Shown piece after piece: positions 40,541-61,735 of a stretch of 64,000 nt of DNA. How positions within the stretch are numbered: position 1 is the stretch's first letter; each line of letters starts with the position of its first letter. The notes under the pieces are model-generated. The model saw only the letters and a program-made list of their open reading frames with translations. It was not told where the DNA came from and made no database searches. The position numbers and the translations under genes were made by a program. Source of the stretch: Gammaproteobacteria bacterium (GTDB lineage Bacteria; Pseudomonadota; Gammaproteobacteria; SURF-13); assembly GCA_030680605.1 (NCBI GenBank), contig JAUXUQ010000022.1, positions 1 to 64,000 on the forward strand. The letters are read 5' to 3'.

Positions 40541-40550
40541 CTGTGCTGGA

Positions 40551-40622
40551 CTACATAAAGACGGCAAAAAAGGCAAAAGTGAAAATAAGCAGCAGTGTCG
40601 GCACCAAATCATCATCGCCCAT
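40551..40622 (-). CDS. Possible 23-residue membrane peptide
   Basis: A short minus-strand frame: MGDDDLVPT then an unbroken hydrophobic stretch LLLIFTFAFFAVFM. GGGGAG lies about ten bases upstream and a strong hairpin follows. This would be a small membrane protein, but size gives little statistical support and no family is recognised. Confidence 0.35.
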   Translation of the reverse strand: MGDDDLVPTLLLIFTFAFFAVFM

Positions 40623-40760
40623 GATACAAGCTCCCCTGATAAAGGTTTGTATGAGATGCTGGTTGGAACGCGCTTCCTGCGAGGCTACTCCCTGGCGATT
40701 GCTCACCGTTAATGCCCCTATACTTTATAGGTAAATAGTTGCGGTGGGAAGGGGTCGGTG

Positions 40761-43684: not shown

Positions 43685-43701
43685 CGGCAGCCGGAAGGGT
43701 C

Positions 43702-44616: not shown

Positions 44617-44701
44617 GTTTCCGCACACTGAAAACCCGGTGTGATCAGCATAGGCGATTTAGCGCGGCTTGACGAGTGCTATCCTGTGCAGCCGCGACGC
44701 C

Positions 44702-45442: not shown

Positions 45443-47277
45443 GAGCTTGCCCCCCTGGCGTGTTGAGATACGGACACGACGCGAAACATGCCAGCGTCCA
45501 TATGAAACAGAAGATGGCAATGAAATGCCCAGTTGCCCAGCGCATCCGCAGTGATCAGCGCCGACACGCTCTCGCCGGGCTTCACGCTGATGGTGTGCTT
45601 GCGCGGCAGGTAGTCCGCATCACCATTCTCCAGCTCCATCCACATGCCATGCAAGTGGATGGGGTGATCCATCATGGTGTCATTCACCAGTATCAGACGC
45701 AGCCGCTCGCCATAGTCGAAGGCGATAGGGGCCCTGGATTCTGAATATTTCTTGCCGTCAAACGACCAGATATAGCGTTCCATGTTACCGGTCAAATGGA
45801 TCTCGACCTCGCGCCCGGGCTGTCGTTTGTCGTGCACCGGCGTGACACTGCGCAAGTCGTTGTAGACCAGTACGCGGCTGCCGGTATTTTCCAGCCCGCT
45901 GCCAGGTTCATGCATGCGGTTACCCGGCATGGGTACGCCGGCCGCGCGCAACTTCGCGCCGCCCATGGCCATGCCTGACATGTCGTGCGGCATAGCGCTA
46001 CCCGACATGCTCATATCGCCCATGTCATGGTTCATGCCTGACATGTCGTGTTGCATGCCGCCATCAGCGGACATATCCATATCCATGTTCATATCCGACA
46101 TGTCGTGCTGCATGGCGCCGTCGCCTGACATATCCATGCCTGCCATGTCATGCCCCATGCCCATGTCGGCCATGGTACGCAACGGCCGCGTCCGCCGCTC
46201 GGGGATGGCTGCGGTCAGGCCTTCGCGTGCCGTCAGTGTGCCGCGCGCATAACCGCTACGATCAATGGTCTCGGCAAATACGGTATAGGCGCGCTCTTCC
46301 TGCGGCTCGACGATCACGTCATAGGTTTCGGCGACGCCGGTGCGGAACTCGTCCACGGTTACGGGTTTCACATTCTGACCATCCACCTGCACCACGGTCA
46401 TCTTGAGGCCGGGAATACGGACATCAAAATAGGTCATGGCGGCGGCGTTGATAAAGCGCAGCCGTACCCGCTCGCCGGGCCGGAACAGGCCAGTCCAGTT
46501 CGAGCCGGGCGCGAGGCCGTTCATCAGATAGGTGTAGGTGTAACCGGTAACGTCCGAGAAATCGGTCGGCGACATGCGCATGCGGCCCCACTGGGCGCGG
46601 TCGGCCAGCGTCGCACTCCAGCCTTTTTCAGCTGCATCGCGGAACAGGTCACCCACAGTGCGCTCCTGGAAGTTGTAGTAGTCACTCTGCTTCTTCAGCT
46701 TGGCCATGACGTGGTGGGGATCCTCGAAGGTCCAGTCGGAGAGCATCACCACGTATTCACGATCGTAGGAAAACGGCTCTGGCTCCATCGGGTCAATAAT
46801 CATCGGCCCGTAGTGGCCCAGCTGTTCCTGCATGCCGCTATGGCTGTGATACCAGTAGGTGCCGCTCTGGGTGACCGGAAATTGATAGGTGAAGGTCTCG
46901 CCCGGTTTAATGCCGGCGAAACTCACGCCGGGCACGCCGTCCATTGCCGCCGGCAAAAGGATGCCGTGCCAGTGTATGGACGTGTCCTCCTGCAGCTGAT
47001 TGGTCACGCGCAGGACGGCGTTTTGCCCTTCGCGTAGCCGTATCAACGGCCCGGGGATGGAACCATTGGTGGTGACCGCCCTGGCTTCCTGATCGCCGAT
47101 GCGCAGCGTGGTGCGCTGGATGAGCAAATCTATCGCGGCATCGGCTGTGGATTGGGGCAGCCCGCCATACTCTGCGGCATAGGCGGGGGCGAAGCGTTCG
47201 AGCCCTGTCAGCAGGCCCATGGCGGCCAAGCCTTTTAAAAAGTGGCGCCGTGAGAGGCGCGTGGTTTTACTGTTCAT
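45439..47277 (-). CDS. copA: Copper resistance multicopper oxidase
   Basis: A 612-residue periplasmic multicopper oxidase. Tat signal SRRHFLKGLAAM at the start. Copper sites: HWHG and WYHSH in domain 1, HPIHLHGMW and the C-terminal HCHLLFHMDAGM. A Met/His/Asp-rich insertion (about residues 370-440) is built of near-repeats of MQHDMSDMNMD and MPHDMSGMAMG, a copper-binding segment. It oxidises or sequesters Cu(I). Co-translated with copB. Confidence 0.95.
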   Translation of the reverse strand: MNSKTTRLSRRHFLKGLAAMGLLTGLERFAPAYAAEYGGLPQSTADAAIDLLIQRTTLRIGDQEARAVTTNGSIPGPLIRLREGQNAVLRVTNQLQEDTSIHWHGILLPAAMDGVPGVSFAGIKPGETFTYQFPVTQSGTYWYHSHSGMQEQLGHYGPMIIDPMEPEPFSYDREYVVMLSDWTFEDPHHVMAKLKKQSDYYNFQERTVGDLFRDAAEKGWSATLADRAQWGRMRMSPTDFSDVTGYTYTYLMNGLAPGSNWTGLFRPGERVRLRFINAAAMTYFDVRIPGLKMTVVQVDGQNVKPVTVDEFRTGVAETYDVIVEPQEERAYTVFAETIDRSGYARGTLTAREGLTAAIPERRTRPLRTMADMGMGHDMAGMDMSGDGAMQHDMSDMNMDMDMSADGGMQHDMSGMNHDMGDMSMSGSAMPHDMSGMAMGGAKLRAAGVPMPGNRMHEPGSGLENTGSRVLVYNDLRSVTPVHDKRQPGREVEIHLTGNMERYIWSFDGKKYSESRAPIAFDYGERLRLILVNDTMMDHPIHLHGMWMELENGDADYLPRKHTISVKPGESVSALITADALGNWAFHCHLLFHMDAGMFRVVSVSQHARGASS

Positions 47278-47444
47278 CTCTGAGCTCCATTAGCAGTGGT
47301 GCATACGTGTGGCTTGGCGGAGGTGGCAGGGGTGTGATGCAACGCAGCAGGGCGTTGTAACTAATCACACTCGTGCAGTGGCCGAAGCCTGATTAAGCTG
47401 CCCGCTTGGCCGGTAAGTGGGTGCGGACAAACTCGAGGATGGTT

Positions 47445-47786
47445 TTAAACTGGGCGCGGAGGCTCGTAGGGCGGGGATAAATCGGTATCGATGAACGTCA
47501 GCGGCGATGCCACAGGGCTGTCCGGCAAGGCGCTGTAAGCAGAAAACAGCATTGCGGGCGTCAATGCCGAGCAGTGGGTGCCACACATGCCGCAGGCATG
47601 ACCAGCGCCTTTGCAGTCGTTGCTGCCATGGTGCGACTGTTCGTTGCTGGTGCTGTCGCTGTATGTCGCCGACGTGTGCGATGCCGCAGCCGAGTGGCCG
47701 CTGTCAGGGGCTGCCAGCAAGGGCTGCAGCGGTGCAGCCAGCAGCATGAAAACCAGCAACAGATGCAGGGGTGCGTAACTAACCAT
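47445..47786 (-). CDS. Secreted Cys/His-rich protein (DUF2946-like)
   Basis: A 113-residue protein starting at 47786 with a signal peptide (LLLVFMLLAAPLQPLLA). The mature part has HHGSNDCKGAGHACGMCGTHC (about 60-80, shown in parts: DCKG, HACGMCGTHC), a likely metal site. It resembles small DUF2946-type proteins of copper clusters. It lies between the mercury-type operon and copA, same direction. Confidence 0.6.
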   Translation of the reverse strand: MVSYAPLHLLLVFMLLAAPLQPLLAAPDSGHSAAASHTSATYSDSTSNEQSHHGSNDCKGAGHACGMCGTHCSALTPAMLFSAYSALPDSPVASPLTFIDTDLSPPYEPPRPV

Positions 47787-47844
47787 GTTTACATTCTTGG
47801 TCTTTCTGGCGAGCGTGTCAAGCGACACTCCGCCTGGGTGGGCC

Positions 47845-48108
47845 TCAGGCTTGTCCCAAACCCGCTGCTCGCAGAGTGGTTTCATCGGGCCCTCGCCCGG
47901 TGCAGCAGGCAGCGAGTTCGCCATTGATCGCCACGGCTGGCAGGCTGCGGATACCGAGTCGTTGTGCGCGCTGGGCCACGCTGCTCTTTTGCATGTCCAG
48001 TACGACTATCTCACAGGAGCCACAGCCAAGACGGGTAACCAGATCAATGGTGTCCTGGCACACGGGGCAGCCCGCGCTGAAGACTTCAACGTTGCGTTGT
48101 GTGGTCAT
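47845..48108 (-). CDS. Small thioredoxin-fold protein
   Basis: An 87-residue thioredoxin/glutaredoxin-like protein with CPVC (C14, C17) near the N-terminus, a second CGSC (C29, C32) and CC near residue 67. The cis-Pro equivalent is RSLPAVAING. AAGGAGG precedes the ATG at 48108. It follows the MerC-like gene and may deliver metal or reduce thiols. Confidence 0.82.
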   Translation of the reverse strand: MTTQRNVEVFSAGCPVCQDTIDLVTRLGCGSCEIVVLDMQKSSVAQRAQRLGIRSLPAVAINGELAACCTGRGPDETTLRAAGLGQA

Positions 48109-48118
48109 AAAACCCTCC

Positions 48119-48856
48119 TTACGGTTGAGCGGAAGAAGAAACACAGGCCGGACAAGACCCTGCCGCAGACCGGGTACGCGGCCAGGCGTTCCACAGCGAT
48201 GCGGCGACTAACAGCCCCATGCCGGCGAACATGGCAATATCGGAATCAAATGTGAATTTTCCTATCAACAACACGAGCGAGGCGACCAGCCCGGCGAATA
48301 ATGGGTAATAACCACGGCGTTGCTGTGCTCGCCAGCCCAGCACCATCAAGGACAACAGCAGAAACACCGCTGTCAGCGGCAGCAAATACGGCGTGTAATT
48401 GACAAAACCCACGCCCATCGTACCCAGCAGCCCCGAGTACGCGGGCCAGCACGCCGGACACGTCAGCTTGGGCAGTGCAGCAGCGCCGATGGCGGGCAGG
48501 GCGACGGAAGCGTCGCGCCAGCTGGTGCGCGCTGTCGACGCTTCCGTCGCCCTGCCTTCACGCAGTGCGGTGGTGATGACATCCACAGTGGGCGCACCCT
48601 CGAAGGTTCCTGCGGTGGCGGCATATACACGGCAGGCGCTGGCGGCATCGCCAGGCGGTGCGCCCGTTACATCGCGGCCGTTCACCAGCACCGTGGGCGA
48701 GCCGTAGCCTTGTGTAAAGGCGGGGCTGGCCGGATCATCGCGCGCCCACTCCTGCCAGTGCGGTGTGAGCCCGGCCAGGGTAAACGCCTGCAACAGCCGC
48801 GCGCGCGCCAAAGACGCGTTAGGACAGGTGCGGAAATAAATCAGTGTTACGGTCAT
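48119..48856 (-). CDS. MerC-like membrane protein with N-terminal thioredoxin-like domain
   Basis: A 245-residue two-part protein. Residues about 1-100 look like a thioredoxin-fold domain (YFRTCPN with a single Cys, then PTVLVNGRDVTG). Residues about 115-235 have four helices with LTCPACWPAYSG in the first, the CxxC metal pair of the MerC/MerT transporters. It probably moves Hg(II) or another soft metal. The tail SCPACVSS adds another pair. Overlaps merR by 4 bases. Confidence 0.75.
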   Translation of the reverse strand: MTVTLIYFRTCPNASLARARLLQAFTLAGLTPHWQEWARDDPASPAFTQGYGSPTVLVNGRDVTGAPPGDAASACRVYAATAGTFEGAPTVDVITTALREGRATEASTARTSWRDASVALPAIGAAALPKLTCPACWPAYSGLLGTMGVGFVNYTPYLLPLTAVFLLLSLMVLGWRAQQRRGYYPLFAGLVASLVLLIGKFTFDSDIAMFAGMGLLVAASLWNAWPRTRSAAGSCPACVSSSAQP

Positions 48857-49257
48857 GAGTCACCTTCCAGGGCATCCAGAATCGAGCAGGTGCTGGTGGG
48901 GCCATCGCCATGGCAGGAAGCAGCTAGACCGACCAAGGCCTGCTCCATCTGCCGGAGCATGACGATCTTGGCGCGTATGTCGACGATTTTCACTTCAGCG
49001 CGCTGGCGGATGTCAGCGCAGGTTGTGCCCGGCGTGACGCGCAGACTCAATAGCTCCTTGATATCTTTCAGGCTAAAGCCCAACGCCTTGGCATGCCGGA
49101 TGAAGCGCAGCCGTGCCAGCGCGTCCTCCGGGTATTGACGATAACCGGAAGGCCGTCGCGGCGGCTCGGCAATCAGGCCTTCACGCTCGTAATAGCGGAT
49201 GGTTTCTACGCCCGCGCCGGAGAGACGCGCCAACTGACCGACGGTATATGCAGCCAT
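48853..49257 (-). CDS. merR: Hg(II)-responsive MerR family regulator
   Basis: A 134-residue MerR protein. Winged helix with VETIRYYEREGLI (about 18-30), the dimerisation helix, and C80, C115 and C124. The spacing C80 ... C115-x8-C124 equals the C82, C117, C126 mercury ligands of Tn501 MerR, shifted by 2. The start at 49257 is chosen from AGAGGA upstream. It leads its own operon with the MerC-like and thioredoxin genes. Confidence 0.88.
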   Translation of the reverse strand: MAAYTVGQLARLSGAGVETIRYYEREGLIAEPPRRPSGYRQYPEDALARLRFIRHAKALGFSLKDIKELLSLRVTPGTTCADIRQRAEVKIVDIRAKIVMLRQMEQALVGLAASCHGDGPTSTCSILDALEGDS

Positions 49258-49282
49258 GCACGATGTTCCTCTCATGTGTAGT

Positions 49283-49314
49283 ACTGTAATCCCTGTACCC
49301 TGCTACAGAGTCAA
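49283..49314 (-). promoter_or_regulatory. MerR-type promoter/operator
   Basis: On the minus strand: -35 TTGACT (49309-49314), dyad CTGTA-6-TACAG (49293-49308) in the spacer, and -10 TACAGT (49283-49288). The 19-20 base spacer is longer than normal and is the hallmark of MerR-activated promoters. It drives merR and the genes after it. Confidence 0.82.
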
Positions 49315-49369
49315 GCAGGGTCGTAGCGAAGGGGGCGGGGAGTATTTAGAAGGGCTGCTTATCGCAGAG

Positions 49370-50153
49370 TCAGGCCGGGTCTATTTGGATACCGCCCTGA
49401 AGACCTTGTTGCAGCAAACTGCTGCCGGCCTGGAGCGGGTTGGCGAGCAGCGCGCGCTCCTGCTCGCCAATGACCTTATAAAGGGCGTCGAGGGCCTGCC
49501 GGGTGACATACTGTTCCACCGTTGCCTGATCTTCCTGCACCAAGCCAAACTTGGCAGCCGAACCTGCGTTAGGTATTGTATTGCTGTGCTAGCCTCGCCT
49601 TGCCGGTAACGGCCTTGACCTTGGGGCCGAAGCGTTCGGTGAGTGTGGCCTCGGTTTTGCCACGGAAGAACTCGGTAGCCGCCGTGTCACCACCCGTGAG
49701 AATGCCCCGGGCATCTTCCACAGTCATCTGTTTGACAGCATTGACCAACGGGGATTTGGCCTCCGGTACGGTGGCCTCGGCGGCACGGTTCATTGACAAA
49801 ACCAGTTCGTCTGCCTGATTACCCATGCCCATCATGCGCAGCACCTGCTCGGCTTTTTGCAGGCTGGGCGGGAGTGGAATCTTCAAGGCCGCATTACCAA
49901 AGAAGCCATCCTTCTGTCCCAGTTGTGCAACGGCAGCCTCAGCACCACGACTGAGCACTTCCTTCAGGCCCGAGTTCATTTCGGCGGGCTTGAGGCTGTC
50001 CACGCCCGTCTTTTGAGCAGCTGGTGCCTGGGTGGCGGTGTCAGGCTTCTCGCCCAGTGCATCTTTGAGCGTGCCCCCGAGGCCGCCAAAATCAAAGGCA
50101 CTGGCAGACATGCTCAAGCTTAGGCTGATCAGCCCAATCATTAAGTTATGCAT
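49370..50153 (-). pseudogene. Frameshifted DUF4197 gene
   Basis: Start ATG 50153 with AGGAG upstream, signal peptide (LMIGLISLSLSMSASA), then a DUF4197-type body with FGGLGGTLKDAL, KIPLPPSLQKAEQVLR and ATEFFRGKTEATLTERF. The frame stops at TAA 49569-49571 (QQYNT). One base over, the expected continuation goes on: AAKFGLVQEDQATVEQYVTRQAL and KVIGEQERA, to TGA 49370-49372. One inserted or lost base near 49570 explains this. It is either a real pseudogene or a sequence error. Confidence 0.85.
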
Positions 50154-50615: not shown

Positions 50616-50742
50616 TCAGCGAGCTTACCGTGGAGTTGTCGGCGCTATTCCGCGCCGTCTGTGTAGTATCCAATGATAAGCCCCAACGTTCAAGCACGCG
50701 CGTCGCCTGGAGCGCTTTGCCGGATGGCGGGCGGCTGCGAAA

Positions 50743-51267
50743 TTAAATTACGCGTGACGGCAGCTTCGGGTCGAGCACCTTTCGCGCACTCTCTGCACCA
50801 CTTACAGGCAGGCCTGCAGGATCAAGCAGGCCAAGCTGCACCAGCACGCCAGCCTGGTCCCAGTAAATATGTTCATGGGCAATCTTGCCGCCCTCAAACT
50901 TTACAATTACTGCGAATGCCGCTTCAACGCGTCTTCCAGTGGGCAACACGCCAGGCAACATCCAGTCGATGACCGTAGTGTGCGTAAACCTGATTACCAG
51001 TTCGTCGACAATTTGGTCTTCTCCGATGGTGCGCGACACGCTAATCATCTCAACGTCAGGCGGAAAGAATTTGCCCACCAGATGATTAGCGTAAAAATCG
51101 CGCACCCCCTCCTTCCCTACGCCGCCGGTTATCAGCGGCACATTGGTGAGGTGAGGCTGATCCGACATGGTCGCCATCGTGGTTTCAATGTCGCCCTTGA
51201 GTTCGGCATCCACATGCTGCTGAAAAAGCTTCAGCATCGCTTCTTGTGACGGTGTCAATGTGTGCAT
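50743..51267 (-). CDS. SnoaL-like (NTF2 fold) protein
   Basis: A 174-residue NTF2-like protein of the SnoaL/ester cyclase kind. Pattern: FQQHVDAELKGDIETTMATM at the start, RDFYANHLVGKFFPPDVEM in the middle, HEHIYWDQAGVLVQLGLL near the end. Such proteins bind or isomerise small molecules; substrate unknown. Confidence 0.8.
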   Translation of the reverse strand: MHTLTPSQEAMLKLFQQHVDAELKGDIETTMATMSDQPHLTNVPLITGGVGKEGVRDFYANHLVGKFFPPDVEMISVSRTIGEDQIVDELVIRFTHTTVIDWMLPGVLPTGRRVEAAFAVIVKFEGGKIAHEHIYWDQAGVLVQLGLLDPAGLPVSGAESARKVLDPKLPSRVI

Positions 51268-51351: not shown

Positions 51352-52158
51352 TCACACGCGCACTGCGTGCGTAATGAGATACTCACGGCCCCAGCGCACC
51401 TTCCCGTCTGCCGCTGCACGGTAACCGGCGAGGAACGTAAGCAGCTCGTCTCGCAGGGCCTCCAGTGCGCTGCCCTGCAGGCTCGTGGCGGCGCGTAAGG
51501 TTGGCCCATACCGCGTCGAGAAGAGTGTCCAAATGTCCTCGGGTGAAGCACCGAACTGGGGGCAATCGCCGTGCGTAAAGGCAAGGTCGCGGAACGCGTT
51601 GCCGAGGAGTTCGCGCACCTTGTCGGAGTCGCCCCAGTTGAAAGGGCTCGCTACCCCTGCGGGCGGTGGGAAATGCTTGTTTGTGATGCGAAACCAGCCG
51701 CCGAGGCCGCCATCGGGAGCCCATGCGAGAAACACGATGCGACCCCCCGAACGCGTAACACGCGCAAGCTCGGCTGCAACCTTGGGCTGGTCAGGAGCAA
51801 ACATGTGGCCACAGGTGGAGAGCACGACATCGAAGCTCGCGTCCGCGAAGGGCAGCGCCTCCGCATCGGCTTCGCGAAAATCAATGTCGTCGAAGCCTTG
51901 CTGCTGAGCCTTGGTTCGAGCGACCGCCAGGAGTTCCGGGGTCAGGTCTGCGCCGGTCACGTGCGCGCCGCGCTCGCGCGCTGCGATGGCCGTGATGCCC
52001 GTGCCAGTGGCAAGGTCCAGCACACGCTCACCGGGCCGGAGCTTGGCGACACGCAGCGTCTGGTCCGTCGAAACCGTGAGGCCGTCAGCGATGCTGTCGT
52101 AATCGCCCAGCGCCCACGTAGCACGCTGCTTCTGTTTGAGCTCAGTGAGGTCGGTCAT
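51352..52158 (-). CDS. SAM-dependent methyltransferase
   Basis: A 268-residue class I methyltransferase. SAM-binding motif I is VLDLATGTG (about 46-54), with DLTPELLAVAR as motif II and FREADAEALPFADASFDVV as motif III. The C-terminal part with FNWGDSDKVRELLG is of the UbiE/arsenite-type methyltransferase lineage, but the substrate is open. Confidence 0.85.
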   Translation of the reverse strand: MTDLTELKQKQRATWALGDYDSIADGLTVSTDQTLRVAKLRPGERVLDLATGTGITAIAARERGAHVTGADLTPELLAVARTKAQQQGFDDIDFREADAEALPFADASFDVVLSTCGHMFAPDQPKVAAELARVTRSGGRIVFLAWAPDGGLGGWFRITNKHFPPPAGVASPFNWGDSDKVRELLGNAFRDLAFTHGDCPQFGASPEDIWTLFSTRYGPTLRAATSLQGSALEALRDELLTFLAGYRAAADGKVRWGREYLITHAVRV

Positions 52159-52230
52159 GGGTTCTCTCCTATGTCGTGAGCTGAAGGGCTGCGGTGTCCC
52201 CCGATGTTTGGTGTTAGCTGGATTTGCATT

Positions 52231-52237
52231 GTTAGGC
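52231..52237. other. attC end box of the haemoglobin gene (incomplete site)
   Basis: GTTAGGC (R'' on the minus strand: GCCTAAC), four bases past the haemoglobin stop, as in other cassettes here. No matching R' box is seen in the next 80 bases, so the attC is lost or highly diverged. Confidence 0.4.
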
Positions 52238-52240
52238 GCT

Positions 52241-52603
52241 TCATACGCGAATGATGTTGCCCTTCAATGAATAGAGGATGGCGATGACATCATTTTTTGT
52301 GGCTTCATCCAATTTATGGTTGTTCATCGCGCCGACAATGTCATCCATCACCGCCAAATACTCCTGTTCACTGATGTTCATGCCCTTGTGTGCGGCAAGC
52401 ATGTCCTTACCCGTGTAGGGTTCCGGGCCGCCGGAGCCTGCGCAGAAAAATTCGCGTGCCATCCGTTTGGCGTGCTCCATGTCTTTGATGTTCTCGAAGC
52501 GGGTTTTGACGATGGGGTTATCCAGATGTGCAGCGATGAGATCGTCGACGAGGCTGGCAATGCCTTCGGCTCCGCCAAGTCGTTGATAAAGTGTAGTAGT
52601 CAT
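52241..52603 (-). CDS. Group 1 truncated haemoglobin
   Basis: A 120-residue truncated haemoglobin. N-terminal LYQRLGGAEGI, the GGPEPYTG glycine motif and the proximal His H72 (AAHKGMNI) are intact. Such proteins bind O2 or NO and often detoxify NO. The start at 52603 lies 82 bases after the boundary of attC-5, so this gene is probably an integron cassette with a decayed attC. Confidence 0.92.
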   Translation of the reverse strand: MTTTLYQRLGGAEGIASLVDDLIAAHLDNPIVKTRFENIKDMEHAKRMAREFFCAGSGGPEPYTGKDMLAAHKGMNISEQEYLAVMDDIVGAMNNHKLDEATKNDVIAILYSLKGNIIRV

Positions 52604-52678: not shown

Positions 52679-52735
52679 GCCTAACGTCAAGCTTCAGTCG
52701 GCCGAGCGAAGGTAGGCGGGACGCACTTGTTGGGC
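52679..52735 (-). other. Integron attC site (attC-5)
   Basis: GCCTAAC (52679-52685) and GTTGGGC (52729-52735) fit RYYYAAC and GTTRRRY. Inside, CAAG/CTTG and GTC/GAC pair with a single extra base on the right arm, as in other sites here. It belongs to the diiron metallo-beta-lactamase cassette, whose stop is 28 bases away. Confidence 0.75.
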
Positions 52736-52763
52736 ATTCATTACGTAACTGGATAGTGCATTA

Positions 52764-53489
52764 CTAAGACAGCTCATTGGCGAGAGCTCTTAGTAGTGTC
52801 GCCCCATCACCACGCCACGCGCTGCCGTGCATACAGGCAAGCGTTGTTGGCTCAGTGGAGGCCAACCGCTCAAGCATCGCACGCGTGTTCTTCGTATGTG
52901 AGAAATAATCCATTCTGTGCCGAAAAGCTTCGCTGGGCCCGAGAATGTCCGATTCTGTGATGGGTGGAAGATCAGCGCCGCCCTGTGTGAACAGATCGCC
53001 GCATAACAATGTCCGGGTTCGTTCTTCCATCAAAAAACCACATTCCCATGCGTGCGGTAAATGCGGGGTATCGAACCAGCGCACGCGGTGTTTGCCCAAA
53101 GAAAGCACCTCATTGTCCGCAAGGGCGCGAGGACTCCGATCAGCAAGATCTTGGACTGATACCATAGCCGCGACTGTACCACAGAGAGGCATGGATTGCG
53201 GGGCTACGGCAAGCCATTCGTTGAGTGAGCCACACTCATCCGCCTCTACATGAGAAAAGGCAATATAACGAAGCCGTCCGACCGGCAGTACGCTCGCGAC
53301 CGCTTCACGTACAATCGGAAACATCTTTCGAGGTCCGGTGTGGAATAACAATGGTTCGTCATCCATAATAAGGTACTGGTTAAAGGAGAAGCCAGCTCCA
53401 CCTTCAAACACAACCGGCGTATTAATGCGATAAATACCATCGGTAATTTCATGCACGTTCGTCCCCGTCTGGCTATTTGTAATGGTCAT
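52764..53489 (-). CDS. Diiron ODP-type metallo-beta-lactamase fold protein
   Basis: A 241-residue MBL-fold protein. The metal residues are H80, E82, D84 (HVEADECG), H146, D165 and H221. HxExD rather than HxHxDH is the diiron pattern of flavodiiron and oxygen-binding ODP proteins, and even the numbering matches flavodiiron enzymes. It has no flavodoxin domain. It could reduce or sense O2 or NO. It lies in a cassette with attC-5. Confidence 0.85.
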   Translation of the reverse strand: MTITNSQTGTNVHEITDGIYRINTPVVFEGGAGFSFNQYLIMDDEPLLFHTGPRKMFPIVREAVASVLPVGRLRYIAFSHVEADECGSLNEWLAVAPQSMPLCGTVAAMVSVQDLADRSPRALADNEVLSLGKHRVRWFDTPHLPHAWECGFLMEERTRTLLCGDLFTQGGADLPPITESDILGPSEAFRHRMDYFSHTKNTRAMLERLASTEPTTLACMHGSAWRGDGATLLRALANELS

Positions 53490-53543
53490 TATTGCCTCTT
53501 GGTAAGAAAATTCACTTCAGGCGGTAACTGTTAGTCTGATCTT

Positions 53544-53617
53544 GCCCAACGGTGCGGTTGAGGCGAGCATGTCAAGTGTAAGGCCTGACCCGCATGCCCT
53601 CCCTCGCGGGCATGCGG
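53544..53617 (-). other. Partial attC of the hydrolase region
   Basis: GCCCAAC (53544-53550) fits RYYYAAC at the left boundary, and a perfect ten-base hairpin follows (53590-53599 with 53608-53617). The opposite GTTRRRY box is not found before the repeated GTCAGACTC units, so the site seems to be disrupted. Confidence 0.4.
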
Positions 53618-53683
53618 CGAACGAAGCGATGACTTTCTCGACTAGATTTGCCAATTCTATCAACGACCCGCGAATCAAAATCA

Positions 53684-53741
53684 AAATCAATGGGGTCAGA
53701 CTCAAATCAATGGGGTCAGACTAATCAATGGGGTCAGACTC
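53684..53741 (+). repeat. Three tandem copies of an AATCAATGGGGTCAGACT unit
   Basis: Units begin at 53684, 53704 and 53723, each about 19-20 bases. The same unit recurs at 54642, 54661 and inverted at 54855, around a RayT fragment. I take it as the REP-like repeat of that transposase family. Confidence 0.75.
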
Positions 53742-53760
53742 GATTGATTCTCACGCTGGT

Positions 53761-54615
53761 TCATCGCGCCTCCAAGCCTTCAGTTCCCGCGAAGAACGCT
53801 CGAATGAGATCGAGACGCTCACTGTGGATGTCGGCATTCGAGTCCATGAAAGGATGGGCATAGTCAGGCCGAACGATGGCCCGGCCGCCCCGCGTCTCGG
53901 CAACATCGAGGAGATCCTGAGAGCTCTGCCTCGGCACAACGGTGTCCTGTTCGCCCGCGATCAGGAGAAATCGAGCGCCGTCTTTCGGGAAATTGACAAC
54001 AGGGTCGTATTGCTCCGGGCAACCCAGGTGCGAGACGCGGCTTGGAGTCGAATCAATCACGGCACGATCAAAGTCGATGCCCGATCCGACGACGTTGAGC
54101 AACACGACGCCGCCAAAAGAAATGCCGTAGAGGAAGCGCTTACCCTTGGCCGATGCACCGATGCGGGCGAAAAGCTCCTGATAGTCACTCACCATTGCCT
54201 TAAGCCGCCGATTTCCCTCGGAGCCCCCGTAACCGCGATAATCAAATATATATACGTCAAGGCCCGCCCGTGAGAAGCCGGCCAGACTCGAAAGCAGCTG
54301 GTCGGCCAGCATCGCGTTACCTTGAGCCACCAATATAGAGCCGATAACAGCCCCGTCAGTGGCGGTACTCCTGAGCTTGTAACCCCTCAAGAGACGGCCA
54401 TCCTTTGTCCTATGCACCATGGGCTCAGCATTTGGAACCTGGCCGGCAGTGGCTGGATTCGGCGTTCCGGCGGCAATGCTCCATGTCCAGAAGGCAAAAG
54501 GCTCTCGAAAAAAGCCGCAGACGCTTTCCTCAAGCTTCTCTGATTCAGTTGCCGGGGAAGTTGTGGCAGTGGTCACAAGGACGAGTGCCGCGAGTATCAG
54601 GCGAAGAAGCTGCAT
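53761..54615 (-). CDS. Secreted alpha/beta-hydrolase
   Basis: A 284-residue protein with signal peptide (LILAALVLVTTATTSPA, end about 22). Nucleophile elbow YGISFGG in mid-protein, acid in AGEQDTVVP, and His in DYAHPFMD give the triad. The FDYRGYGGSEG block is typical of the BEM46/DUF-type serine hydrolases. It is flanked by GTCAGACTC repeats and sits in the integron array, but without an intact attC. Confidence 0.8.
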   Translation of the reverse strand: MQLLRLILAALVLVTTATTSPATESEKLEESVCGFFREPFAFWTWSIAAGTPNPATAGQVPNAEPMVHRTKDGRLLRGYKLRSTATDGAVIGSILVAQGNAMLADQLLSSLAGFSRAGLDVYIFDYRGYGGSEGNRRLKAMVSDYQELFARIGASAKGKRFLYGISFGGVVLLNVVGSGIDFDRAVIDSTPSRVSHLGCPEQYDPVVNFPKDGARFLLIAGEQDTVVPRQSSQDLLDVAETRGGRAIVRPDYAHPFMDSNADIHSERLDLIRAFFAGTEGLEAR

Positions 54616-54641
54616 ATACCGAAAATCAGAATCAATGCAGA

Positions 54642-54679
54642 ACCAATGGGGTCATGCAGAACCAATGGGGTCAGACTCG
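54642..54679 (+). repeat. Two further GGGGTCAGACT repeat units
   Basis: Units at 54642-54654 (partial) and 54661-54679. They follow directly on the broken end of the RayT fragment. Confidence 0.7.
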
Positions 54680-54686
54680 ATTGATT

Positions 54687-54800
54687 CTCAAGATAGAAAC
54701 GGTAATCTGCGTCGGCACAGAAGATTTCTGTACGGTTGTTGCCGCGCAGGATGATATGTTGCGGTTGGCCGGGAATCACAAATCTAGGTATGCGCGCCAT
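54687..54800 (-). pseudogene. 5' fragment of REP-associated transposase (RayT/TnpA_REP)
   Basis: The frame begins MARIPRFVIPGQPQHIILRG then NNRTEIFCADADYRFYLE, the unmistakable start of Y1 transposases linked to REP elements. After about 38 residues it passes into the GGGGTCAGACT repeat and homology ends; HUH and catalytic Tyr regions are gone. It cannot be active. Confidence 0.85.
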
Positions 54801-54854
54801 TGCCTGCCTCCAGCTTCATAGGAATAGGTACTGTCCTACGTTTTCAATCATATA

Positions 54855-54879
54855 TCAATCGAGTCTGACCCCATTGATT
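54855..54879 (-). repeat. Inverted copy of the GTCAGACTC repeat unit
   Basis: Complement of the units at 53684-53741, lying upstream of the RayT fragment; together they bracket the fragment in opposite orientation. Confidence 0.7.
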
Positions 54880-54899
54880 CCACACCTCCGAGCTCGTTA

Positions 54900-54959
54900 G
54901 CCCAAGGTGTCAACTAAATCGGGGGAAGTTTACAGTCCGAGTTGAAGCTGTTGTTAGCC
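54900..54959 (-). other. Degenerate attC of the DUF262-HNH cassette (attC-4)
   Basis: GTTAGCC (54953-54959, next to the gene stop) and GCCCAAG (54900-54906, one base off RYYYAAC). Inner arms TCAACT and AGTTGA pair, and CGG/CCG. The site is diverged. Confidence 0.5.
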
Positions 54960-54960
54960 A

Positions 54961-56301
54961 TCAGTTATTTCTTGGGCGTGACCAATTACAGAATCTATGG
55001 GTAAGACGCGCATTCTCCGGCACCGTTTTACCACCGCGCCAATACTGTTCTATGTGGTCAAGGGCAGCATCATCTACCAACTGAATTTGTTGACCACATA
55101 TTTCACATGTTGGATTTAAATCAAATATTTCTCGCTTCAGGCTATAACTAAAACAGCGCGGTTCTCGATGCTGAATCCCGATTACTTGCTGGAGCGCACT
55201 GCGCCATTTATCGAATCTTTTGGTGATTGCCTGAATCGAACTTGTGGACAACTCGATTGAGTCTATGAACTCTTGGTCGGACGTCATTAAATAGATTAAC
55301 GCCTCGCGAACAGCGTCAAGATTTTGGAATACCCGATTCTTATCCTCCTTTGCAAAGGAATACATCAAAATATCGTACAGCGACGCATTAAACACCTTCG
55401 GTTCCCAATGACCGTTTGGGTCAGTTTCCGTGCCTTTGTAGTAGCGTTTAAATGCGTTGGCTCCGAGAACAGACTTGACGAGATGAACTGAATTTCTAAA
55501 CGCTGCTTCCAGTTCTGCTGAATCAGAATCAGAAATAAACTGATGTTTTTCCATTTCCCTATTTAAGAAGCTACGCATAGGGGGCTTATAGTTCAAGTAT
55601 GTCTGGTGAAAGAACGCAGAAAATCTCAAAACCAGTTCCACATCTTTCATCCGCTTGTCTGGCGCAGAGATACCCATAAGTGCGGTGAACTCAGAACTTG
55701 TTGCCAGTTTCTTTAGCAGATGGTTGTACGGGCCTCTGTAGATACAGTTGCGAAGCTCCTGATCATTTAATGAAACTGAACCTGTATTGAGTCTTTCGAA
55801 TATTTCAAATTTCAAATTAGGATCGGATTCCTTACGGAAGGTAATTGTGCGGATTTTGCAATAACGAACTTTGTCCTGATCTGCCTCGGGCAGCTCTGCA
55901 AAATGCTTCCGATTGTACTCCGCAAAAACTTTTAGCCCAGAAAGGCGGAAATCCGCACCATCTGGAAACTTTCCGTCTACGAACGAAAAGAATGATGTAA
56001 GTCGTTGCTGCCCATCAATTACGTATTCGTTTCCATCATTCTCTTGTGAGATGTAGACCACAGGGAGCGGGATATCCAACAGAGCAGATTCGATAAGCCG
56101 GCTAGATTTTTTGGGATCCCATACAAACTGGCGCTGAAAATCTGGCTGGATTACGAGTTTGCCTCGTTTCCACTTGTTGTAAAGTGACTCTATTTCGGGA
56201 TCACCTTGATCTGTAAATATCTTGTTCCGCCCAGCTTGAACATCAGCTTCTTCGACCTCTTCTTCAAGAGGTGTTTCGAATTGCAGTTCATCTTCTTCCA
56301 T
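54961..56301 (-). CDS. DUF262 and HNH nuclease protein (GmrSD/SspE-like)
   Basis: A 446-residue protein. The DUF262 domain (about 30-250) has PDFQRQFVWD and the ParB/Srx-like VIDGQQRLTSFF (DGQQR about 96-100). The C-terminal HNH endonuclease has CEIC, DHIEQYW and HRFCNW zinc and catalytic elements. This architecture is found in type IV-like restriction (GmrSD) and SspE phage-defence proteins. AAGGAG precedes the ATG. The gene lies within cassette borders at attC-3 and attC-4. Confidence 0.88.
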   Translation of the reverse strand: MEEDELQFETPLEEEVEEADVQAGRNKIFTDQGDPEIESLYNKWKRGKLVIQPDFQRQFVWDPKKSSRLIESALLDIPLPVVYISQENDGNEYVIDGQQRLTSFFSFVDGKFPDGADFRLSGLKVFAEYNRKHFAELPEADQDKVRYCKIRTITFRKESDPNLKFEIFERLNTGSVSLNDQELRNCIYRGPYNHLLKKLATSSEFTALMGISAPDKRMKDVELVLRFSAFFHQTYLNYKPPMRSFLNREMEKHQFISDSDSAELEAAFRNSVHLVKSVLGANAFKRYYKGTETDPNGHWEPKVFNASLYDILMYSFAKEDKNRVFQNLDAVREALIYLMTSDQEFIDSIELSTSSIQAITKRFDKWRSALQQVIGIQHREPRCFSYSLKREIFDLNPTCEICGQQIQLVDDAALDHIEQYWRGGKTVPENARLTHRFCNWSRPRNN

Positions 56302-56333
56302 CAGTGATGGCTCCTTACAGACTAATTATTGAT

Positions 56334-56406
56334 GGCTAACGTGCAAGCTCAGCGGACTGGCAAAAAGCGCAGCTTTTTGCCAGTCCGCTGGAGCACAGTG
56401 TTAGGC
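56334..56406 (-). other. Integron attC site (attC-3)
   Basis: GGCTAAC (56334-56340) and GTTAGGC (56400-56406). An 18-base perfect stem (AGCGGACTGG... with its complement) plus a GCTC/GAGC outer stem, with one extra G on the right arm, the extrahelical base of attC. The gene's TAA overlaps the R'' box. This is the clearest attC in the window. Confidence 0.9.
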
Positions 56407-57063
56407 GAGAATTTTAACCGGGTGATGTTTTTCATATTCACGATTAATTTTTCTAACTCTATGAATTGTTTTAGGAGACGAAGACACGCTGACAAACATC
56501 AGGGAGTGCCAGTAAATTGCAGTAGAATACCCACTTAGGAGGCGTTCGCGAATGCGCGCAAAGTCATCGGGGAATTTTTTTCGTCGGTGATGTTGAAACA
56601 CGGTGACCACAGTATAGGGAGATATCGATTTGATCAGCCTATCAAGATCGGAGTAGCGGACGTGCTTATCAGAAGAACTACGTTCGGGCTCAAAACCATT
56701 GTCTGGATCAAGGAAAATAACCTGGTCTTGGCTGGTTTCAATGCCTGCGAAAAATGAGTTGTGACTGTTACCGTTCAGGGCTTCATTTGGCTCATGAAAG
56801 CTGACCTTGTACTGCGCGCCTGTTGTGGCTGGCAACCCCAGCACTAACCCAGGGTCTCGGCTGGAACGCAAATGGTTACAGAAATTCAGTATCTCTTGTC
56901 TCGCAGGAAATAATTCGGGTGCAGTGTTTCCGTCTGGCCCATTGTCATCGGGCGTCATCATCCACGCGATCTTGAGGTGGCTATAGCCAAGGGCTTCAAC
57001 AAGATAATGGTGGTAGTCCCACTTGAAGCTGTCTTTTGAGTCACCGAGATATTGGCGCTTCAT
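56401..57063 (-). CDS. Cassette-encoded protein of unknown function
   Basis: A 220-residue cytosolic protein. The start at 57063 is 12 bases from the cassette border, usual for cassettes, and no ribosome binding site is visible. It begins MKRQYLGDSKDSFKWDYHHY and has VIFLDPDNGFE in the middle and a basic C-terminus. The DPDNG block recalls some methyltransferase or nuclease partners, but I cannot assign a family. Shielded by attC-2 and attC-3. Confidence 0.75.
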   Translation of the reverse strand: MKRQYLGDSKDSFKWDYHHYLVEALGYSHLKIAWMMTPDDNGPDGNTAPELFPARQEILNFCNHLRSSRDPGLVLGLPATTGAQYKVSFHEPNEALNGNSHNSFFAGIETSQDQVIFLDPDNGFEPERSSSDKHVRYSDLDRLIKSISPYTVVTVFQHHRRKKFPDDFARIRERLLSGYSTAIYWHSLMFVSVSSSPKTIHRVRKINREYEKHHPVKILA

Positions 57064-57074
57064 TTGGTTTGATC

Positions 57075-57161
57075 GCCTAACGTAGAGGTGACCGGCGCTG
57101 CGCCGCTTTTTGGCGCAGCGTCCAGCGACCAAAGGGAGCGAGGTTGAGCGCCATGTTATGC
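57075..57161 (-). other. Integron attC site (attC-2)
   Basis: GCCTAAC (57075-57081) and GTTATGC (57155-57161), with a nine-base perfect stem CGCTGCGCC/GGCGCAGCG inside. The stop codon of the CoiA-like gene lies in the R'' box. Confidence 0.85.
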
Positions 57162-57758
57162 ATAACCACTTTCCAGCGCGCGCACATGTTTGAGATGGCC
57201 CCACCCGCCGCAGGGTGTGTTTTTGGACATGCGACGAACATTAAGCACCTTGCCACCACCAAGATCAAGCCGAGCAGGTGCTGTTGTGTAAGCCACGGAT
57301 TTGCGAGGATGTTTCCACCGGAACGAATAATAGTCACCGCGTGGACGAAGATTAAAGCGATCTTTTTTGTAAGGGTCGCGGGCGTCAAATACCCATATCA
57401 TATTTCTATAAAAACGCTCTCTAGTCTCTATTTCATCAACGGAAATTCCAGAGCACTGCAATTCAATAACGGTGCCACCAGGGAGCACAGCATCTGCTCT
57501 GTGGTTTTCACCATCTTTAGACATGAATACTTCAAGGGAAGCGCCAAGTGTTTTTAGGTAATGCTGCCACCGAATATGCCAAGCAGACGGGCTTTCTGCC
57601 CACGGATCGCAATCAACACCTGAAAGGTGACGCCAATGCCACATAACAATTTGCCCGCAACAAGCGACCAACTCCCCACCGCAACCGGGACAGATTGTCC
57701 GTTGACCGGAGAACTCCGGCTCAATAGTGGCCCCCTGTTCAGTGGTGAAGCAGATCAT
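57156..57758 (-). CDS. CoiA-like nuclease domain protein
   Basis: A 200-residue protein of the competence CoiA-like family. N-terminal zinc-ribbon elements CPGC (C23, C26) and HWRH (41-44), then a PD-(D/E)xK type nuclease core HRADAV (D89) and VIELQCSG (E99, Q101). Cassette members of this family are nuclease-like and may act in defence or DNA uptake. It lies between attC-1 and attC-2. Confidence 0.8.
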   Translation of the reverse strand: MICFTTEQGATIEPEFSGQRTICPGCGGELVACCGQIVMWHWRHLSGVDCDPWAESPSAWHIRWQHYLKTLGASLEVFMSKDGENHRADAVLPGGTVIELQCSGISVDEIETRERFYRNMIWVFDARDPYKKDRFNLRPRGDYYSFRWKHPRKSVAYTTAPARLDLGGGKVLNVRRMSKNTPCGGWGHLKHVRALESGYA

Positions 57759-57889
57759 GAGCCTATTTGGTTTCCAGAGGTGGCATATATAGGTGCTCTA
57801 TGTGATGCATTTCAAGACTGCAAGAATGATGAGGAGCGCAACGGTTTGGTAAGCCAGATTCGCTTTGAGGCACAGGTATTTCCCGATAT

Positions 57890-57960
57890 GCATAACGCAG
57901 AGTTCAGCGGGACTCCGGCAGCATTATCGCCGGAGGCTCCGCTGGAACGCCGGGTTGGGC
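57890..57960 (-). other. Integron attC site (attC-1)
   Basis: GCATAAC (57890-57896) and GTTGGGC (57954-57960). Inner arms CTCCGGC and GCCGGAG pair, and AGCGG/CCGCT pair, with one extra base on the right arm. It is the attC of the first cassette after attI. Confidence 0.85.
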
Positions 57961-57983
57961 CTGGCGCACAGGAGGGCTGAGAT

Positions 57984-58181
57984 ATGCAAACAGCGAAAGA
58001 GCGAGAAGAAGCGTTTCGCCGCGACTTAGCGGAACTGCTGGCAAAGCACAAGGCCGAACTGAACATCGCGGACGACGGCAAGAGCTACGGAATGCACAGC
58101 GGAATCGCCGAGGTAACGATGATGAGCGAATGGGACGAGGCAGGGAATCAGACCGCCGACTACACGGAATTTCGGATATGA
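57984..58181 (+). CDS. Inverted first-cassette gene of unknown function
   Basis: A 65-residue, charged protein (MQTAKEREEAFRRDLAELL, then helical and acidic sequence, ending DYTEFRI). AGGAGGG lies seven bases before the ATG, so translation is likely. It runs opposite to the other cassette genes and cannot be expressed from the usual cassette promoter. No family is recognised. Confidence 0.65.
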   Translation: MQTAKEREEAFRRDLAELLAKHKAELNIADDGKSYGMHSGIAEVTMMSEWDEAGNQTADYTEFRI

Positions 58182-58182
58182 G

Positions 58183-58328
58183 GCCCAACGTAAAGTAGAC
58201 ACCAATAAAGTACTAAATAGTTTAGCACACTGGTGTACTAAACTATTTTTAATGAGATATTGCTTTATAATCAAAGTTGGCATAAATTTATCACACCATT
58301 TCCCGGTTTTTAGTACACCGTCCTAAAA
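58183..58328. other. Integron attI region
   Basis: The recombination box GTTGGGC (minus strand; + GCCCAAC 58183-58189) marks the first cassette border. Between it and intI, a motif recurs four times: GTACTAAA (58210-58217), TTTAGCACAC (58221-58230), GGTGTACTAAA (58232-58242) and TTTAGTACACC (58309-58319), giving an 11-base hairpin (58215-58225 with 58238-58248). These may be integrase-binding repeats like DR1 and DR2 of attI1. Confidence 0.7.
58246..58274 (-). promoter_or_regulatory. Possible cassette promoter Pc
   Basis: Minus strand TTGATT (58269-58274), 17-base spacer, TAAAAA (58246-58251). Both boxes match four of six consensus positions. It points into the cassette array. On the other strand TATAAT (58266-58271) could be the intI -10, but no good -35 accompanies it. 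Confidence 0.4.
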
Positions 58329-59309
58329 ATGCCCAACGAATCTCAGAAATCCCCGAAGCTTATGGAGCAGGTGCGCGACTGTTTGCGGGTTAAGCATTAC
58401 AGCCTGCGTACCGAGCGTGCTTACATGGACTGGATTAAACGCTTTATTTTGTTTCATGACAAGCGTCATCCGGAGAAAATGGCGGTGGCCGAGGTGGAGG
58501 CGTTTCTTTCGCATCTCGCGGTGGCGCGCGAGGTGTCGGCTTCGACCCAGAACCAGGCGAAAAGCGCTTTGCTGTTCCTGTATAAAGAGGTGCTGGGTAT
58601 TGAGCTGCCTTGGCTGGAAAATGTGACGCGCGCCAAGACGCCACAACGTTTGCCGGTGGTGCTGACAGAGGACGAAGTGCGGCGCGTGCTGGGTAAGATG
58701 GAGGGCACGCTTTGGTTGATGGTCAGCTTGCTGTATGGCACGGGTATGCGGCTGATGGAGTGCGTGCGATTGCGCGTGAAGGATGTGGATTTTCAACGCG
58801 GCGAAATTACAGTGCGCGAGGGCAAGGGCTTCAAGGATAGAGTGACGATGCTGCCGCAGATTTTGTTTGAACCATTGAAGCATCACCTGGACCGGGTGCG
58901 CGAGGTGCATAAGAACGACTTGGCACAGGGTTATGGCAAGGTCTATCTACCCAATGCACTGGCGAAAAAATATCCGAATGCGGCAGCTGAGTGGGGATGG
59001 CAATATGTGTTTCCGGCGCGTGGACTTTCTACCGACCCGCGCTCCGGCGAGGTGAGGCGGCATCATGTGGACGAGAAGCTGATTCAGCGTGCAATGAAGC
59101 GGGCGGTGCAAGAGACGGATATCGTTAAGCCGGCGACGCCGCACACCCTGCGCCATTCCTTTGCCACGCATTTGCTGCAGGCCGGTTACGACATCCGTAC
59201 GGTGCAGGAGCTGCTTGGCCACAAGGATGTGCAGACGACGATGATTTATACTCATGTATTAAACCGCGGCGGGAAGGGTGTGCAGAGCCCGCTGGATCAG
59301 TTGCTTTAA
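58329..59309 (+). CDS. intI: Integron integrase
   Basis: A 326-residue tyrosine recombinase. Catalytic residues R141, H272, R275, H298 and Y307 are intact. The integron-specific patch lies at about 210-229 ([19 protein letters not shown]), which ordinary phage or XerC/D enzymes lack. The gene diverges from the cassettes and follows attI, the standard order. A short hairpin TTTTTAG/CTAAAAA (58307-58313, 58323-58329) reaches the start codon. No LexA box is seen. Confidence 0.96.
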
Positions 59310-59380: not shown

Positions 59381-59593
59381 ATGTTAGCCCTGAGATTATC
59401 CCCCGAGATTGAGCAGCGTTTGGAAAAGCTGGCGCAGAAAACTGGCCGCACCAAGAGCTATTATGCCAAAAAGGCGATCACCGAGTTTTTGCAGGACGAG
59501 GAAGATTACCTGCTCGCCTTGACGCGCCTGGAAAAGAGTAATCCCCGCATTTCCCTGGAAGAGGTCGAGCGCCAACTTGGTTTGGAAAGTTGA
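59381..59593 (+). CDS. RelB-like ribbon-helix-helix antitoxin
   Basis: A 70-residue protein. N-terminal RHH fold: LALRLSPEIEQRLEKLAQ and GRTKSYYAKKAITEFL; C-terminal tail DEEDYLLALTRLEKSNPR binds the toxin. Starts after GGAGGA. It overlaps the toxin gene by 17 bases and is preceded by a palindromic operator. Confidence 0.9.
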   Translation: MLALRLSPEIEQRLEKLAQKTGRTKSYYAKKAITEFLQDEEDYLLALTRLEKSNPRISLEEVERQLGLES

Positions 59594-59846
59594 GTTTGAC
59601 AGCGCCGCGCTGAAAGACTTAAAGCGCCTGGATCAAACTGCTCAGCGGCGTATTGTCCACTATCTGCGCGAACGCATCGCCATAGAAGAAAATCCGCGCC
59701 GCTTGGGCAAGGCTCTGCACGGAGATAAATCAGGGCTCTGGCGTTACCGCGTAGGTGACTATCGCTTGCTTTGCCGTATTGAAGACAACATATTAATGGT
59801 TCTCGTCATAGCTGTTGGACATCGTAGCGGCGTTTACAAAAACTAG
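59577..59846 (+). CDS. RelE/ParE superfamily toxin
   Basis: An 89-residue toxin starting at TTG inside the antitoxin gene. Pattern: [16 protein letters not shown] at the start, [28 protein letters not shown] with the RelE-type Arg and Tyr, and [13 protein letters not shown] at the end, typical of mRNA-cleaving RelE toxins. The pair may stabilise the integron. Confidence 0.92.
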
Positions 59847-59860: not shown

Positions 59861-61735
59861 ATGAAGTATCAACACAAATTTGACGTAATCATTGTCGGCG
59901 GCGGGCACGCGGGCACCGAAGCGGCGCTGGCGGCGGCGCGCATGGGCGCGCGCACATTGTTGCTGACGCAAAGCATTGAAACCCTGGGCCAGATGAGCTG
60001 CAACCCCTCCATCGGCGGTATCGGCAAGGGCCATCTGGTAAAGGAGATTGATGCGCTCGGCGGGCTGATGGCGCGTGCGGCGGATCAGGCCGGTATCCAG
60101 TTCCGTACCTTGAATGCGAGCAAGGGCCCGGCGGTGCGTGCCACCCGTGCGCAGGCCGACCGTGTACTCTACCGGCAGGCGGTGCGGGGCGCATTGGAGG
60201 CGCAAGCCAATCTTTCCATCTTTCAGCAGCCGGTGGAAGATTTAATCATTGAGGGCGAGCGCGTTACGGGTGTGGTGACGCAGATGGGTTTGCGTTTCAG
60301 CGCCCGCTGCGTGGTGCTGACAGTGGGCACGTTTCTCGCCGGGCGTATTCATGTCGGATTGTCGAATCATCAGGGTGGCCGCGCCGGTGATCCACCCGCG
60401 AACGCGCTGGCAAGTCGCATGCGCGAGTTGCCGTTTCGGGTGGGGCGTTTGAAAACCGGCACGCCGCCGCGCATCGACGGGCGCACGATAGATTATTCAA
60501 AGCTCGCGCCGCAGCCGGGCGACGAACCGCAGCCGGTGTTTTCCTTCATGGGGCGCGTCGCAGATCATCCGCGCCAGGTGCCGTGCCACATCACCCACAC
60601 CAACGAGCGCACGCACGACATCATCCGCGGCGGCCTCGACCGCTCGCCGATGTACACCGGCGTGATCGAAGGTGTGGGGCCGCGCTACTGTCCGTCCATC
60701 GAAGACAAGATCGTGCGCTTTGCCGACAAGGCTTCGCATCAGATTTTTGTCGAGCCGGAGGGGCTGACCACGCACGAGGTTTACCCCAACGGTATCTCGA
60801 CCAGCCTGCCGTTCGATGTGCAGATCGAGCTGGTGCGCTCGATCAAGGGCTTTGAAAACGCGCACCTCACCCGCCCCGGCTACGCGATTGAGTACGATTA
60901 CTTTGACCCGCGTGACTTGCAGCCTTCACTCGAAACCAAAATCATTCAAAATCTGTTTTTCGCCGGCCAGATCAACGGCACCACCGGCTACGAAGAAGCG
61001 GCGGCGCAAGGCATCATGGCGGGCATCAATGCCGCCCTGCGGGTGCAGGAGCAGATGCCGTGGTGTCCGCGCCGCGATGAGGCGTATATCGGCGTATTGA
61101 TTGACGACCTGATTACGCGCGGCACCAGCGAGCCGTACCGCATGTTCACCAGCCGCGCCGAGTACCGCCTGTTGTTGCGCGAAGACAATGCGGATTTGCG
61201 TCTCACAGCCAAGGGCCGCGAACTCGGCGTGGTAGACGATGCGCGCTGGCAGGCATTTGAGGCCAAGCGCGAGGCGATAGAAAAGGAACAGCAGCGCCTG
61301 CGCGCCACCCGGCTGCGCCCGGAGACATTGCCGGAAGAGGAGGCCGTGCGCGTGCTGGGGCAGCCGCTCAGCCGCGAGGCGACGCTGATGGAGTTGCTGC
61401 GCCGTCCGGATGTGAATTATCACGCGCTGCTGTCTCTGCCGGGTGCGGGTGAGGCGGCGGCCGATGAAAAAGTGGCGGAGCAGGTGGAGATACAGGCCAA
61501 GTATCATGGCTATATAGAGCGCCAGCACGACGAGATTGCGCGCGCGCGCCTGCATGAAGACACAGCCCTGCCGCTGGACCTCGATTACAGCAACGTGCGT
61601 GGTCTTTCCAGGGAAGTGCAGAGCAAGCTCGGCGACCACCGGCCGGCCACGCTGGGCCAGGCGGGCCGCATCTCGGGCGTCACCCCCGCCGCTGTATCGC
61701 TGTTGTGGGTACATGTGAAAAGGTGGCGTGCGTAA
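59861..61735 (+). CDS. mnmG: tRNA uridine-5-carboxymethylaminomethyl enzyme MnmG (GidA)
   Basis: A 624-residue FAD enzyme that with MnmE modifies U34 of tRNA. FAD motif [11 protein letters not shown] (about 12-22), the [14 protein letters not shown] block, and a C-terminal helical domain. Only 14 bases after the toxin gene. Its usual neighbour mnmE is far upstream here. First gene of mnmG-rsmG-parA-parB. Confidence 0.97.

Follow-up and report, generated by a model that had tools for sequence, protein, structure and literature searches.

Organization of the locus

Near dnaA in a 64 kb stretch of bacterial DNA (the window, by which the whole of the sequence analyzed is meant) is an integron, with an integrase gene, intI, read towards mnmG, an attI region just upstream of intI, and an array of about 4 to 7 cassettes to the left (Table 1). 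An earlier note, made from the letters of the DNA alone, had placed a chromosomal integron between mnmE and mnmG near dnaA, and the present analysis supports this. The element does lie between the two genes, but mnmE is not its immediate left neighbor as two blocks of genes, one including MoxR and the other copper and MerR genes, intervene. The second of these, at 44702-50150 between the MoxR block and the array, encodes the multicopper oxidase CopA, CopB-like and MerC-like proteins, a MerR-type regulator and a DUF4197 protein, and it was not found at the corresponding place in relatives. On the right, the toxin of the toxin-antitoxin pair matches PF05016 at 57 bits, and the MnmG protein of this genome is closest (up to 79%) to those of other members of the same class.

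Table 1. Features of the integron and its surroundings, from left to right in the window
Feature	Position	Strand	Evidence or remark
Left block, mnmE to array: RF-1-like, transglutaminase, DUF58 and MoxR genes	40104-44628	-	Pfam
Candidate decayed attC just behind SnoaL-like gene	50681-50725	+	R1 match at 50687, 10.8 bits, E 1.2
SnoaL-like gene	50743-51267	-	PF12680
Methyltransferase gene	51352-52158	-	PF08241; no attC of its own
Truncated-haemoglobin gene	52241-52603	-	PF01152; lacks an attC, and is to the left of the one at 52679
attC closing cassette 5, inner stem badly paired	52679-52735	+	R1 19.7 bits, E 0.0065 (moderate); weak fold
Cassette 5 gene, metallo-beta-lactamase fold (ODP family)	52764-53489	-	PF19583, 50.8 bits
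Invading AATCAATGGGGTCAGACTC repeats, within and beside cassette 5	53685-54879		Repeats found
Cassette 5 gene, alpha/beta hydrolase	53761-54615	-	PF12146, 56 bits
Stump in cassette 5 repeat stretch, resembling REP-associated transposase	about 54690-54800	-	Translation
Possible degenerate attC, cassette 4	54900-54959	+	Arms 27th and 41st of 128,000 positions; no model support
Cassette 4 gene, DUF262 (GmrSD_N) and HNH	54961-56301	-	PF03235, 108 bits; PF01844
attC, cassette 3, near-perfect 19-bp inner stem	56334-56406	+	R1 36.5 bits, E 3.3e-7 (strong)
Cassette 3 gene, 220 aa, no family match	56401-57063	-	ORF
attC, cassette 2, insert in one arm	57075-57161	+	R1 15.3 bits, E 0.083 (weak)
Cassette 2 gene, CoiA-like nuclease domain	57156-57758	-	PF06054, 21.2 bits, cut-off 20.3 (weak match)
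attC, cassette 1	57890-57960	+	R1 32.1 bits, E 4.4e-6 (strong)
Cassette 1 body, adjoins attI	57961-58182		Only ORF of note reads against the array
Cassette 1 ORF, 65 aa	57984-58181	+	ORF in sequence
attI region	58183-58328	-	Conserved motif; cassette junction in GCCCAAC (58183-58189), then GTAAAGTAGACACC
intI, integron integrase, 326 aa	58329-59309	+	TIGR02249, catalytic residues, 2A3V alignment, tree
Toxin-antitoxin pair between intI and mnmG, without attC	59381-59846	+	Ribbon-helix-helix-like antitoxin and ParE-family toxin
mnmG, conserved right neighbor	59861-61735	+	Gene identification

Integrase and recombination sites

The integrase scores 504.4 bits against NCBIfam TIGR02249 (cut-off 265), inspection of its intact sequence finds R141, H272, R275, H298 and Y307 all present, and its alignment with Vibrio cholerae IntI4 (2A3V) covers the full length of the protein, including the IntI-specific patch that separates IntI from Xer. 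The earlier description of a complete integrase with these five residues and the patch is thereby borne out. In a tree of 100 proteins it falls among the IntI proteins of Beta- and Gammaproteobacteria and apart from the Xer-like recombinases of its own genome; the closest integrases, at up to 77% identity, are those of Sulfuricella, Gallionella, Thiobacillus and Methylotenera.

Rfam at its gathering thresholds gave no match in the window, and because of this a separate covariance model, R1, was built in this analysis from 24 aligned attC sites of other bacteria. R1 is not the model of a standard tool, and no site from the window or its family is in its training set. The stem of the alignment has 83 cells in which both sides change, where shuffles give an expectation of 38. 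A near-identical hairpin starting GTCCAACAAACGGTTYAGATCGTGGC, present in arrays of different bacteria (L006:922-976, L017:6234-6296 and L029:36-98), was excluded from the model. A search of both strands of the window with R1 returned four matches with E<1, all on the + strand, and these are precisely the four good attC sites that had been claimed (52679, 56334, 57075 and 57890). Widening the search to the whole genome (1.87 Mb) gives four matches with E<1, of which three are in this array and the other is marginal. There is, then, an array of four attC sites in one orientation (E 3e-7 to 0.083), and the bottom strand of the site at 56334 folds at -29.7 kcal/mol. The two outcomes that the earlier note held would speak against its reading, an integrase outside the IntI clade and an absence of covariance-model matches, were both checked; the protein groups with integron integrases, far from Xer-like proteins, and all four good coordinates have matches.

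Two further claims concerned these sites. A fifth, degenerate attC at 54900 was matched by R1 neither in the window nor in a 600-base search, and is not claimed here. An unpaired extra base on the same arm of three sites can be seen by eye in 56334 and 57890, but the fold of 52679 is too weak to judge; the general attC model itself has a fixed column for such a base. A strict consensus finder missed the sites of the window because their outer boxes are imperfect; applied to relatives, the same strict rule collected 33 attC sites to the left of intI, from which the 24 sites of R1 were taken, and none in 593 kb to its right. Elsewhere in the genome of one relative, G001, are two strong attC sites (L133, G001:C36, 3033-3101 and 3789-3857; 59 and 40 bits) with no known adjoining integrase.

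Further left in the window, the candidate at 50681 has a left arm of 12.6 bits (6th of 128,000 positions) and a right arm of 11.2 bits (7th) that is without its outer box. Judged from these arms the array probably once reached further left, at least to 50681, and the coordinates of the integron should probably be extended to about 50680. A possible half attC at 52216-52237, with an arm ranking just 266th, was rejected, and a marginal half site at 53544 (9th of 128,000) is not claimed.

The attI motif, RYYYAAC-GTAAAGTAG, starts 146 bp upstream of intI in the window. It is present in 18 of 83 loci, at 111-146 bp upstream of intI, and absent elsewhere (2.07 Mb, both strands). When the window is compared at the junction with its relative G005, the intI side matches while the cassette side is unrelated, as is expected of a cassette insertion point. 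Motif and junction divergence together identify an attI adjoining intI, and the earlier claim of such a site stands, the motif being confined to the region upstream of intI. The attI sequence of the window resembles that of G005, and the sequence of G003 that of G004. Upstream of intI no sigma-70 consensus Pc promoter was recognized, nor a LexA-like box with fewer than 3 mismatches, so that the mode of cassette expression is inferred. A Pc promoter and an SOS-controlled intI promoter are not required in every integron. Within the attI region there is also a 34-bp near-perfect AT-rich palindrome (58215-58248), not seen in the aligned relatives; on the - strand it has the score of a terminator-like hairpin, which would face cassette transcription.

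Cassettes and their cargo

The GC content of cassettes 2-4 is 44-51%, against about 60% in the flanks. The ORF of cassette 1 has no Pfam, PADLOC or PHROG match. In cassette 4 the DUF262-HNH protein matches PADLOC NsnA at 319.7 bits and also PHROG 2598, and is a candidate anti-phage nuclease that makes up a cassette by itself. The stump among the repeats of cassette 5 has no Pfam match but resembles a REP-associated transposase. Beyond the site that closes cassette 5, the truncated-haemoglobin gene is probable cassette cargo, and the methyltransferase and SnoaL-like genes are possible old cargo. The arrays of relatives were found to contain none of the proven cassette proteins of this one, which suggests turnover.

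The locus in related genomes

The family sample is the genome of the window and five relatives (G001-G005), all draft assemblies and probably metagenome bins, with the arrays of G003-G005 broken across contigs. As the earlier note had suggested, cassettes and flanks were compared in these relatives, and an integron or its remains is between mnmE and mnmG in all five. In G003, G004 and G005 intI adjoins mnmG in the same orientation as in the window. Two relatives are of the same genus as the window: G002 has no intI, but attC sites form an array there from the MoxR block towards mnmG, in the interval between the two, and in G001 there is just an 85-residue C-terminal stump of intI, overlapping a stump of the transglutaminase gene, which is a deletion scar. 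Counting the G002 array and the G001 stump, the locus is thus fixed in six of six family genomes, and occupation of the same site across the family indicates that the platform site is ancestral. Its edges also look inherited, both being common to several genomes. The window, G002 and G003 have the left block by mnmE in common, and G004 has most of it, the RF-1-like gene not being found there; the gene order is the same in all. The toxin-antitoxin pair beside mnmG is common to the window and G005 (94% for the antitoxin and 83% for the toxin), and its antitoxin is also shared with G003. Being outside the array, the pair could stabilize the platform.

Outside the family, adjacency of intI and mnmG is found in one of 79 genomes with both genes. 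This one, the unrelated G310, has intI 1.4 kb from mnmG and, between them (L134:7712-8262), a different two-gene pair resembling a toxin-antitoxin system. In G173 and G292 intI is about 100 kb from mnmG, and in genomes assembled in one or two contigs it is often in the origin-side half of the chromosome, a post hoc observation on few genomes. A literature search found no paper on an integron adjoining mnmG or gidA.

Orientation with respect to replication

With dnaN and dnaA at about 33.5-36.1 kb of the window, the integron is some 16-22 kb away from this gene and from the inferred origin, a proximity that may give it a higher copy number. From the positions of dnaN and dnaA, a parS-like site at 33481 and a GC skew that is positive from near 24 kb, and mostly so to 80 kb, the fork should cross the integron from left to right. 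As the attC bottom strand is the + strand, a rightward fork would put the recombinogenic strand on the lagging-strand template. The tendency of sedentary integrons is to the contrary: the leading template holds the bottom strand of attC in 25 of 30 sedentary chromosomal integrons, and the other five, in which it is on the lagging template, are all from Xanthomonas and have at most 22 cassettes (PMC5371416). By analogy, the small array of the window fits the small-array pattern of lagging-template integrons.

History of the platform

The IntI proteins of the family belong to at least three IntI lineages at the one locus, and a single clade is rejected (p-AU 0.0058). In the tree the window integrase is with Sulfuricella, that of G005 is with a Gallionellaceae/Thiobacillus/Azonexus group, and those of G003 and G004 are with Nitrosomonas halophila. 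Neighboring genes conflict with this. G003 and G005 are the nearest pair in these (ParA 93.8%, RsmG 85.1%, MnmG 91.3%) and yet have IntI proteins of only 73.0% identity; for G003 and G004 the figures are 94.3% in IntI and 73.5% in ParA. Inheritance of IntI with the host lineage is therefore not what is seen here; such inheritance is a tendency of the sedentary class with known exceptions and not strictly defining. Since the site is kept in the family while the IntI lineages are mixed, what is ancestral is the site, and the integrase has been replaced. On the sequence comparisons, the simplest reading would have the intI-attI module exchanged in place, by transfer, at least twice. We conclude with high confidence that this is a sedentary chromosomal integron, that its platform site, with the MoxR block on one side and mnmG on the other, was already present in the ancestor of the family, and that its integrase, with attI, has been replaced.

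Separate insertions of different integrons at one preferred site near mnmG, in place of one platform with replacement, would also account for an IntI of at least three lineages there, and the unrelated G310, with its own toxin-antitoxin pair between intI and mnmG, points in that direction. The sharing of the toxin-antitoxin pair by the window and G005, and in part by G003, of the left block by several genomes, and the rarity of the adjacency outside the family, however, make such insertions unlikely, if still to be taken seriously. It is improbable that the integron is defunct, a fossil array beside an intact and unused integrase. The decayed attC at the left, the weakness of 57075 and 52679, the repeats and transposase remnant within cassette 5 and the lack of a recognized promoter would suit a fossil, but intI is full-length with all its catalytic residues, both of the highest-scoring attC sites fold well, including the one closest to attI, and the lack of a proven cassette protein in common with relatives' arrays suggests turnover. 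A mobile integron, borne by a transposon or plasmid and recently arrived from outside the history of the lineage, is very improbable, for though IntI lineages at the site differ among relatives and transfer of integrases between bacteria is known, no carrier transposase is seen beside the element, conserved chromosomal genes are on both sides in several genomes, and occupation of the common site in one orientation in six of six family genomes, G002 array and G001 stump counted, largely refutes it.

In a sedentary integron of this kind, IntI would bind the folded bottom strand of attC, and would either excise cassettes or insert them, as circles, at attI, which is here between 58183 and intI. 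As new cassettes would enter at the attI end, the youngest would be by intI, and those at the left would be the oldest and have decayed sites; along the array attC decay does show a rough gradient. The intact integrase and foldable attC sites make it plausible that attC and attI recombine at the present day. In two relatives the integrase was lost, by deletion in G001 and with only cassettes left in G002.

Relation to known integrons

The element itself is of a known and ordinary kind, with precedents in Xanthomonas (ilvD) and Shewanella (trpA). The sedentary chromosomal integron downstream of ilvD is at one ancestral locus across the genus Xanthomonas with repeated loss of intI, and in X. arboricola intI was replaced in place (ilvD 97.1% versus intI 68.2%; PMC12444791). 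The family of the window similarly keeps one locus where intI has been lost repeatedly and replaced in place, and the predicted lagging-template position of its attC bottom strand is shared with the five Xanthomonas integrons mentioned above. In contrast to the ilvD case, the locus is mnmG near the origin, in a whole family, with at least three IntI lineages. Integrases of different groups also adjoin one gene in the Shewanella chromosomal integrons downstream of trpA (PMC9229058), as they do in the window's family, but most contexts vary in Shewanella whereas all members of this family have the same site. With the V. cholerae integron (IntI4) there is likeness in integrase family, patch and the layout of intI, attI and attC; unlike it, the array of the window is small, opposite in orientation to replication and origin-proximal, and its attC sites are varied. 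The integrons of Sulfuricella, Gallionella, Thiobacillus and Methylotenera have the nearest IntI, and some have the same attI motif, yet none of the 80 loci sampled in that comparison (flanks up to 8 kb) has mnmG nearby.

An origin-proximal integron locus common to a whole family joins the few fixed loci known, and is a clear case of a locus that persists while its integrase is exchanged. It also allows the idea that a recombinogenic strand on the lagging template keeps arrays small to be tested in a group other than Xanthomonas. More speculatively, and with a good deal of doubt, the mnmG side could be a place where integron platforms of several integrase lineages land or are exchanged again and again, and where, in an excision-favoring orientation near the origin, a small, fast-changing array would be selected for over a large stable one. 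The points to retain are an origin-proximal locus fixed throughout the family, the exchanged integrases and the inferred orientation.
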